A stretch of DNA of 64,000 nucleotides from Helicobacter pylori PMSS1 (GTDB lineage: Bacteria > Campylobacterota > Campylobacteria > Campylobacterales > Arcobacteraceae), in contig CAMCYD010000002.1 of NCBI GenBank assembly GCA_945883785.1, forward strand, positions 45,329 to 109,328, read 5' to 3'. A program made the translations under genes and the position numbers. The number at the start of each line of letters is the position of its first letter. Within the stretch, counting starts at the first letter, position 1. The notes below the pieces were generated by a model. The model ran no database searches. It was not told the DNA's origin and saw only the letters and a list, made by a program, of their open reading frames with translations. Shown piece by piece: positions 20,939 to 58,488 of this stretch.

Positions 20939-21154
20939 TACATAATTTGATACGGAGATATTGCGACCAAGCAAGTAAGAGAATTAATCTTCATATATTT
21001 TTTATTTGTTTTTGTGTTATAAAATAATAAATGGTATTACTTTTCAAATAATCAAAATAGAAAAATAGAAATATATTGCCATCTCATAACAAACTGAAGA
21101 TTTTGTGTAGTTTGCTTTCACAAATCCAATGAGAAAAGTGTAAAATTTTTGTAG

Positions 21155-21477
21155 AGAGCCACTTGCAAATTCAAAGATTTTGAGTATGAATAGTAGCAAT
21201 TAAGCGCCTCCAACTAATTAAACTCTACAAAAAAGAGTTTAAGATGAAGTGCCAGTGCAAGGCGGAAGTTCGCAGACTTACGGTAGTAAGTCAAGAAATT
21301 CCAACGATGCAATGGTGCTTTAGCTTAAATTGTTTTTAGAGGATAATTAGTTGGAGGCACTTATTAGATTTTCACTTTAAAAATCACTTTTTGCTCCATG
21401 CAAATGGTTATTTTTAAAGGGGAAAGATGATGATTGAAACTGTTTATAATCATTTGTTTGAATTTGCAAGTGGCTCT
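21155..21477 (+). repeat. Foldback element A, copy 1, interrupted by element B (21203-21361)
   Basis: Ends AGAGCCACTTGCAAATTCAAA ... TTTGAATTTGCAAGTGGCTCT; removing B gives a sequence closely matching copy 58327-58488. Confidence 0.92.
21203..21361 (+). repeat. Foldback element B, copy 1, nested in element A, flanked by TA duplication
   Basis: AGCGCCTCCAACTAATTA...TAATTAGTTGGAGGCACT with TA at 21201-21202 and 21362-21363; interior GACTTAC-GGTA-GTAAGTC hairpin. Confidence 0.9.
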
Positions 21478-21501
21478 AGAGATTAATTAGTTGGAGACAC
21501 T
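21478..21501 (+). repeat. Solitary right end of an element B abutting the end of element A copy 1
   Basis: AGAGATTAATTAGTTGGAGACACT followed by TA; reverse complement AGTGTCTCCAACTAATTAATCTCT matches the B left end. Confidence 0.8.
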
Positions 21502-21551
21502 TAAAAAATCAAGGTATCATTTTTATACTTTTATGATAAAATCCAAATGTA

Positions 21552-21627
21552 CTCCTTATCGCTTAACGGGATAAAGCAGGACCCTCCTAAGGTCTAGCTA
21601 GAGGTTCGAGTCCTCTTGGGGAGACCA
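21552..21627 (+). tRNA. tRNA-Arg (anticodon CCT)
   Basis: Manual cloverleaf: CTCCTTA acceptor / D stem GCTT-AAGC / anticodon arm GGACC-CTCCTAA-GGTCT / T arm AGAGG-TTCGAGT-CCTCT / TGGGGAG-A-CCA. Confidence 0.92.
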
Positions 21628-27273: not shown

Positions 27274-28545
27274 ATGAATAGATTATTTGAAGATGAGGAG
27301 TGGAATTATTATTATGCGGTAGTTCCTATAATGTTAATGTTTGCGATATTTATACTCTGGGCATCATTTAGTGAACTTGACGAGGTTGTAAGAGGTGATG
27401 GGAAAGTCGTTCCCTCTGGACAAACAAAAGTTTTACAACATCTTGAAGGTGGAATTGTTTCTAATATTTTAGTAAAAGAGGGTGACCATGTCAAAGCGGG
27501 AGATGTGATTTATGAACTTTCCCAAGCTTTTTTCGATGCTGATTTGAAGTCAAAAGATATTGAACTTAAATCATTAAATGCAAAATCAATACGACTTTTA
27601 CACGAGATAGATTTCAAAGATACACTGAGTTTTCCAAAGAGCATAGAGGAAACAATACCTGAAGTAGTTGCAAATGAGAGACTTATTTTTGATGAGGACA
27701 AGAGGTCTAAATCCCAAAAATTATCGATAGCAAACGATCAATTACAGCAAAAAATCTTGAAGAAAAAAGACCTTGAGGCAAAAAAAGAGAGTTTGGAACT
27801 TGAACTGAAACTTTCAAATGAAAATATGAAAATACTTGACCAAATGTACAAAAAGCAAGTTATATCAAAACAAGAATATTTAAAAGAGTTGCAACTGAAA
27901 CAAACACTTGTGACTAAAATCACAGATATAGATACAAATGTTCCGATTGTTGTTGAAGAGATAAATGAAGCTACTGGAAAAATTAAAGCGGTAAAATCTG
28001 AAATAAAATCAAAACTTTTAAATGAGTATTCGGATGTAAAAGTGAAAATGAATACACTAGAACAGATGAGCCAAGCAAATCAAGATAGAAATACAAGACA
28101 AGCTATTGTCTCACCCGTAGATGGAATTGTCCAAAAATTATATTTTTATACTGTTGGGGGAATTATCAAAGCTGGAGATAAAGTCGCTGAAATCACACCT
28201 GGAAATGAGTCACTTATCATAGAAGCAAAAATACGAACATCCGACCGTGCCTTGATTTGGGCAGGTCAACCTGTAAAAATAGCAATCACCGCTTATGATA
28301 CCTCAAAATATGGACTTTTAAAAGGAACAGTTCTTTTCATATCTTCAGATACACAAACAGATGAAACTACAAAGACAAGCTATTATTTGGTGCGAATACA
28401 TGCAGATGAACAATTTGCTCCCGACTCACCAATATTACCTGGAATGGTCGCAAATGTTAATATTTTAACTGGTAAAAAAACCATAATGCAATATATTTTA
28501 AAGCCTTTAAAAGATATATCGATGCATTCGTTAACAGAAAAATAA
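27274..28545 (+). CDS. HlyD-family membrane fusion protein of type I secretion
   Basis: VPSGQTKVLQHLEGGIVSNILVKEGDHVKAGDVI; coiled coil; C-term PGMVANVNILTGKKTIMQYILKPL. Confidence 0.93.
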   Translation: MNRLFEDEEWNYYYAVVPIMLMFAIFILWASFSELDEVVRGDGKVVPSGQTKVLQHLEGGIVSNILVKEGDHVKAGDVIYELSQAFFDADLKSKDIELKSLNAKSIRLLHEIDFKDTLSFPKSIEETIPEVVANERLIFDEDKRSKSQKLSIANDQLQQKILKKKDLEAKKESLELELKLSNENMKILDQMYKKQVISKQEYLKELQLKQTLVTKITDIDTNVPIVVEEINEATGKIKAVKSEIKSKLLNEYSDVKVKMNTLEQMSQANQDRNTRQAIVSPVDGIVQKLYFYTVGGIIKAGDKVAEITPGNESLIIEAKIRTSDRALIWAGQPVKIAITAYDTSKYGLLKGTVLFISSDTQTDETTKTSYYLVRIHADEQFAPDSPILPGMVANVNILTGKKTIMQYILKPLKDISMHSLTEK

Positions 28546-28702
28546 GTACCTCCAACTAATTAATCTCTATACAAAAGAGTTCAAGACGAAGTGCTAGTAC
28601 AAGGCAGAAGTTCGCAGACTTACGGCAGTAAATCAAGAAATTCCAACGAAGGAATGGTGCTTTAGCTTAAACTTTTTTTAGAGATTAATTAGCAAGTGGC
28701 TC
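28545..28702 (+). repeat. Foldback element B, copy 2, with element-A-type right end
   Basis: AGTACCTCCAACTAATTAATCTCTA at left; interior GACTTACGGCAGTAAATC; right end TTTAGAGATTAATTAG joined to CAAGTGGCTC. Confidence 0.85.
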
Positions 28703-29479: not shown

Positions 29480-29525
29480 AAAAAGATTTTAACAAATAAA
29501 ACCTCAATCCACTCACTATCCGAGA

Positions 29526-29656
29526 TATTGTCATCAAAAAGCAAACTAAAGCTTATATTGTATGTCATTGCGAGGAACGAAGCAATCCATAGTCGGCTTC
29601 GTGGATTGCTTCGTGCCTCGCAATGACAGTTTCTATGTTTTAGTTTGCTTTGTGAT
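29526..29656. repeat. REP-like palindromic repeat, copy 2, with additional outer inverted arms
   Basis: GTCATTGCGAGGAACGAAGCAATCC...GGATTGCTTCGTGCCTCGCAATGAC (29564-29627); outer arms AAAGCAAACTAAA (29538-29550) / TTTAGTTTGCTTT (29639-29651). Confidence 0.92.
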
Positions 29657-29689
29657 AGCTATATGTGTCAGTCAAAAAGGCAAAAGAGC

Positions 29690-31845: not shown

Positions 31846-32008
31846 AGAGCCACTTGCAAATTCAAACAAATGATTATAAACAGTTTCAATCATCATCTTT
31901 TTACTTTAAAAATAACCATTTGCGAAGGAGTAAAAAGTGATTTTTAAAGTGCAAATCTAATAATTGCTACTGTTCATACTCAAAATCTTTGAATTTGCAA
32001 GTGGCTCT
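31846..32008 (-). repeat. Foldback element A, copy 3 (opposite orientation)
   Basis: AGAGCCACTTGCAAATTCAAAC...CTTTGAATTTGCAAGTGGCTCT; reverse complement aligns with copies 1 and 4. Confidence 0.93.
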
Positions 32009-58326: not shown

Positions 58327-58488
58327 AGAGCCACTTGCAAATTCAAAGATTTTGAGTATGAATAGTAACAATTATTAGATTTTCACTTTAAAAATCACTA
58401 TTTACTCCCCGTAAATGGTTATTTTTAAAGTGAAAAGATGATGATTGAAACTGTTTATAATCATTTGTTTGAATTTGCAAGTGGCTCT
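58327..58488 (+). repeat. Foldback element A, copy 4 (intact)
   Basis: AGAGCCACTTGCAAATTCAAAG...TTTGAATTTGCAAGTGGCTCT, 162 bp; interior TTTTCACTTTAAAAAT / ATTTTTAAAGTGAAAA hairpin. Confidence 0.94.

Follow-up and report, generated by a model that had tools for sequence, protein, structure and literature searches.

Nested elements upstream of tRNA-Arg

In the window (the whole 64,000-nucleotide stretch analysed here), foldback sequences of two kinds, A and B, interrupt one another beside a tRNA-Arg (CCT) gene, and the question is how this arrangement arose. Our analyses indicate, with a probability of about 0.88, that the locus consists of three stacked insertions from two non-autonomous MITE families. 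The left part of element A (21156-21202, forward strand) stops at a TA, where a 159-bp element B is located (21203-21361, forward strand). This B belongs to a young subfamily with AGYGCCTCC ends, has TA on both sides and shows a single-strand fold z of -11 to -12. The right part of A, as read at the locus, follows at 21364-21476 on the same strand. Without B, A is 160 bp long; with B it spans 21156-21476, about 50 bp upstream of the tRNA-Arg gene. It is flanked by a 4-bp target-site duplication, TAGA, at 21152-21155 and 21477-21480. Next comes the terminus of an earlier B of the AGTGTCTCC subfamily together with its TA (21481-21503, reverse strand), reading GATTAATTAGTTGGAGACACT-TA, with B sequence up to 21501 and then TA. 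This older copy holds the inserted A; on the left of A, its inner side extends from 21151 over just a few bases. The tRNA-Arg gene itself (21552-21627, forward strand) is uninterrupted.

Both junctions can be closed on paper. An uninterrupted A at 58328-58487 serves as a paralogous empty site for B: it has CAATTATTAG where the nest has CAAT-TA-[B]-TA-TTAG, and the comparison places the TA duplication at 21201-21202 and 21362-21363. Excision in silico of A and one TAGA restores TTTTTGTAGAGATTAATTAGTTGGAGACACTTA, which is B terminal sequence. Since TTTTTG-TAGA-[A]-TAGA-GATTAATTAG closes to TTTTTGTAGAGATTAATTAG, again the terminal sequence of B, A is inserted inside the older B end. An earlier, sequence-only reading had A ending exactly where a B right end begins; that detail must be corrected, as A sits within the B end with TAGA on both sides. 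Its broader proposal of nested mobile foldback elements at 21155-21505 agrees with the sequence, the duplications and the many genome copies. Both elements are short and non-coding, have terminal inverted repeats, fold back over their full length and occur as multiple dispersed copies with target-site duplications, as is expected of MITEs.

Abundance and target sites of A and B

Further copies of the two elements, on which the sequence-only reading had staked its interpretation, are plentiful in the genome. With one mismatch allowed, the A end GAGYCACTTGCAAATT gave 288 matches in the 2.65-Mb genome and its reversed control none, while B ends gave 41 matches against 1 in the control; the elements of the nest are thus not chance resemblances. 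The 288 ends correspond to approximately 144 copy-equivalents of A. A search with A as query recovered at least 40 near-full copies at 96-100% identity. The window also contains the reference copy without B (58328-58487, forward strand) and a further copy at 31847-32007 (reverse strand), each with the duplication TAAA. Copies are mostly 159-162 bp long, with shorter derivatives of 71, 91, 120 and 137 bp, and their termini are 20 bp (GAGCCACTTGCAAATTCAAA). As a single strand, A forms a fold spanning its whole length (z -9 as DNA, -15.5 as RNA).

An exact 4-bp duplication was present in 34 of the 53 A copies in which both ends could be read, and a 5-bp duplication in none of them; shuffled pairings gave a mean of 3.0 and a maximum of 10 (2000 shuffles). 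Median divergence from the consensus was 3.1% (1.9% for copies with the duplication, 3.8% for those without it). We also considered TA as the duplication made by A and rejected it, as 4 bp fits exactly.

Element B is a foldback of about 159 bp with termini AGTGYCTCCAACTAATTA. Ten places in the genome matched it at 96-100%, many of them at contig ends, and older copies matched at 84-89%; copies of 158-159 bp are up to 99% identical. The TA duplication that had been proposed for B is confirmed by the A[B] junction set against the empty-site A and by the finding that TA precedes 44 of 46 distinct B ends (TA background 8.6%). Two subfamilies can be distinguished. The AGTGCC subfamily is young and comprises near-identical full copies, while the more diverse AGTGTC subfamily also includes double-end palindromes of 30-55 bp and solo ends. 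Minimal TA-flanked palindromes of 30-52 bp, with little beyond two ends, were seen at L112:1497-1526, L118:1497-1530, L255:157-208 and L047:1094-1145. In addition, one TA of a repeated sequence, TTTTAAATGGTA, holds different B subfamilies at L103, L108 and L111, with a similar situation at L095, L117 and L118. This reuse suggests that B has a target preference beyond TA.

Neither A nor B was matched as DNA in plasmids, and no A or B ends were found in viral contigs.

A third repeat family, C, was noticed along the way. It contains the hairpin GTCATTGCGAGGAACGAAGCAATCC, has ends like TATTGTCATCAAAAAGCAAACTAAAGC and TA flanks, and occurs in the window at 1621-1723 and 29525-29664, at L069:1580-1720 and in L228. 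Two A copies have been entered by C, at TA positions that differ by 4 bp, a case of independent nesting.

Order of insertion

The TAGA duplication within B sequence shows that the old B was in place before A arrived, and this is the only order fixed at the locus. The older remnant belongs to the AGTGTC subfamily, and the B inside A is an AGTGCC copy with AGCGCC at one end; this is consistent with a succession in which old B was followed by A and A by young B. Based on these observations, we envisage that an older B left its end here, that A would then have inserted into that end with duplication of TAGA, and that B would have entered at a TA inside A. The order "B, then A, then B" given by the sequence-only reading is only partly supported: it holds for the old B and A, and the entry of B into A is a real event. 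Because same-site A[B] composites exist elsewhere, the B-into-A step may predate or follow the arrival of A. In the congeners examined for the orthologous site, the neighbouring gene was present with no tRNA-Arg beside it.

Three A copies (in the window, at C106:7944 and at C173:4014) contain B at one and the same TA, identically oriented relative to A. This raises the possibility that B entered A elsewhere and that the resulting 321-bp A[B] transposed as a unit through A's ends into the old B. With approximately 13 TA sites and two orientations, we estimate the chance of such a coincidence under independent, uniform insertion at about 0.0015, and the composite in the window is bounded by a perfect 4-bp duplication. 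However, B reuses one TA in TTTTAAATGGTA with different subfamilies, and since B shows such a site preference, independent insertions at the same TA are possible. The B in the window also carries private changes, and the other two composites have lost their outer ends at contig breaks or by deletion. On balance, we regard transposition of A[B] as a unit as tentative and somewhat less probable than its absence. Equally tentative is the view that A[B], a MITE carrying the MITE of an unrelated transposase, is itself a mobile unit and has reached three or more sites.

Recombination between repeats, whether homologous or illegitimate, could in principle have assembled the nest in place of transposition. 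B/A hybrid ends occur, as do solo B ends (28545-28702, L072), and an exact duplication is missing in 19 of the 53 A copies, so recombination or decay acts on A and B repeats. One hybrid is a B copy at 28545-28702 of the window (forward strand) that has the outer 10 bp of A in place of its own right terminus (hybrid end ATTAG-CAAGTGGCTC), probably the product of a deletion that fused neighbouring elements. When the inserts are taken out with one copy of each duplication (2 bp and 4 bp), however, both junctions of the nest return to exact uninterrupted sequence, which largely refutes recombination as their origin and leaves it very improbable. The hairpins might instead serve the host in regulation, as terminators or promoters of tRNA-Arg or of the upstream aminotransferase gene, and not be mobile DNA. 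Their intergenic position and strong folding favour this idea, but it too is very improbable: the flanks vary and bear duplications at dozens of sites, promoter-like sites in the nest are no commoner than in shuffles, and the nest has no terminator-like site.

Partner transposases

Other members of the order also have the 20-bp A end, which in one instance adjoins a transposase of the IS1182-like group. When GTDB genomes were scanned with a pattern excluding A itself, 80 stretches were returned, nearly all from Campylobacterota (Sulfurimonas, Sulfurovum, Arcobacteraceae, Nautiliales). Most resemble the right-hand termini of a single IS group, and many lie at contig breaks. In many Campylobacterota the 20-bp sequence thus terminates a complete or partial IS. 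L199, for example, is a complete IS of 1489 bp encoding a 386-aa transposase with DUF772 (PF05598) and DDE_Tnp_1 (PF01609) domains. The 20-bp end is common to L126, L187, L199 and others; A and the IS share these ends of approximately 20 bp only, and their interiors are unlike. Homologues on plasmids (NZ_AP026405, NC_021077), annotated as IS1182/ISUnCu17, are 33-36% identical to the L199 transposase. These two relatives have ends GAGGCTCTTGC or GAGCCTCTTGC and exact 4-bp duplications (TGGT and ATGA), the same length as those of A. Among the IS, exact duplications were seen only in these more distant plasmid relatives, and the sole Campylobacterota copy with both flanks has an imperfect one (TTAA/TCAA). 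In both its ends and its 4-bp duplications, A therefore matches the IS1182-like group. The best NCBIfam match of the A-end IS transposases is IS1182, at about 51 bits against a cut-off of 270; because they score below that cut-off, "IS1182-like" is the safe wording. Judged from these sequence features, A is very probably an IS1182-like MITE that duplicates 4 bp and has a different motor from B. It would have been moved in trans by an IS1182-type (DUF772 plus DDE_Tnp_1) transposase that duplicates 4 bp. No IS1182-like transposase was found in phages.

For B, mobilization in trans by an IS630-type transposase had been proposed from its TA duplications. With one mismatch allowed, the B end was found in its own genome and in none of the other 399 of 400 genomes of the order; with two mismatches, 100 relatives yielded matches in several congeners and in G431, a member of the same family. 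In G431, an IS630 transposase with a DDE_3 domain (PF13358, E 3e-31) is followed by the end TAAGTACCTACAACTAATTAAACTC, which is identical to TAAGTGYCTCCAACTAATTA at 18 of 20 positions. This IS630 is a single remnant with one end only and a transposase truncated at its start. B thus has the TA duplication of an IS630-family MITE and shares its end with one such remnant, and the proposal now has direct, single support. We predict that an IS630-type (DDE_3) transposase, inserting at TA and duplicating it, moved B in trans.

Another IS lies within the G431 remnant (L314:218-2339) and interrupts it; this IS has CAGCAATTC ends and an apparent 9-bp duplication, TATGAAATA, and its 455-aa ORF matches DDE_Tnp_1_assoc only weakly. 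Large ORFs beside B-like ends in G001, G002, G003 and G005 contained no transposase recognisable by eye. In the congener G003, an element of about 270 bp (L302:1057-1327) is flanked by TA and bounded by the B-like ends AGTGCCTCCAAATAATTA; it is apparently another B-related MITE.

In the host assembly, neither PF05598 (DUF772), PF13358 (DDE_3) nor the L126 transposase was detected. The assembly is a 193-contig draft of 2.65 Mb in which A and B occur at contig ends, so this falls short of proof that a transposase is absent. Given this negative result, A and B would now be immobile here.

Significance and comparison with known systems

This bacterial genome, probably from the Arcobacteraceae, has a minimum of two and probably three MITE families that are heavily amplified and stacked in each other while their transposases go undetected, and the stack of insertions yields relative dates for waves of transposition. 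Ends and duplication length tie the abundant repeat A to an IS1182-like element found across Campylobacterota. There is also a practical warning for similar assemblies, as A and B cause several contig breaks in the draft. We found nothing relevant in the literature on MITEs of Arcobacter or Sulfurimonas.

RUP of Streptococcus, the Correia elements of Neisseria and Nezha of cyanobacteria are IS630-linked MITEs of about 100-160 bp that fold back, duplicate TA and are moved in trans. Compared with these, B has an end sequence of its own, and its partner is seen only as a remnant in a relative. For A, the ISUnCu17/IS1182-like plasmid elements (NZ_AP026405, NC_021077) are comparable in their ends (GAGCCTCTTGC / GAGGCTCTTGC) and 4-bp duplications and have a transposase homologous to that of L199; unlike A, they are autonomous, approximately 1.4-1.5 kb long and from another phylum. 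The nearest published counterpart is the IS1182-family MITE of Methanosarcina acetivorans (partner ISMac2), with 160 bp, 26-bp inverted repeats, 4-bp direct repeats and 14 copies (PMC3852290, Table 4). The same study notes that MITEs resemble their partner IS at the ends only, and it separates elements nested "as Russian dolls". A is likewise 160 bp long with 4-bp repeats, but the M. acetivorans element belongs to an archaeon and has 14 copies, whereas A reaches about 144 copy-equivalents and is interrupted by other MITEs. ERIC sequences occur in 150-711 copies (PMC10969869). A and B are of the ordinary non-coding MITE type, with a close published precedent, and are unusual in their abundance.
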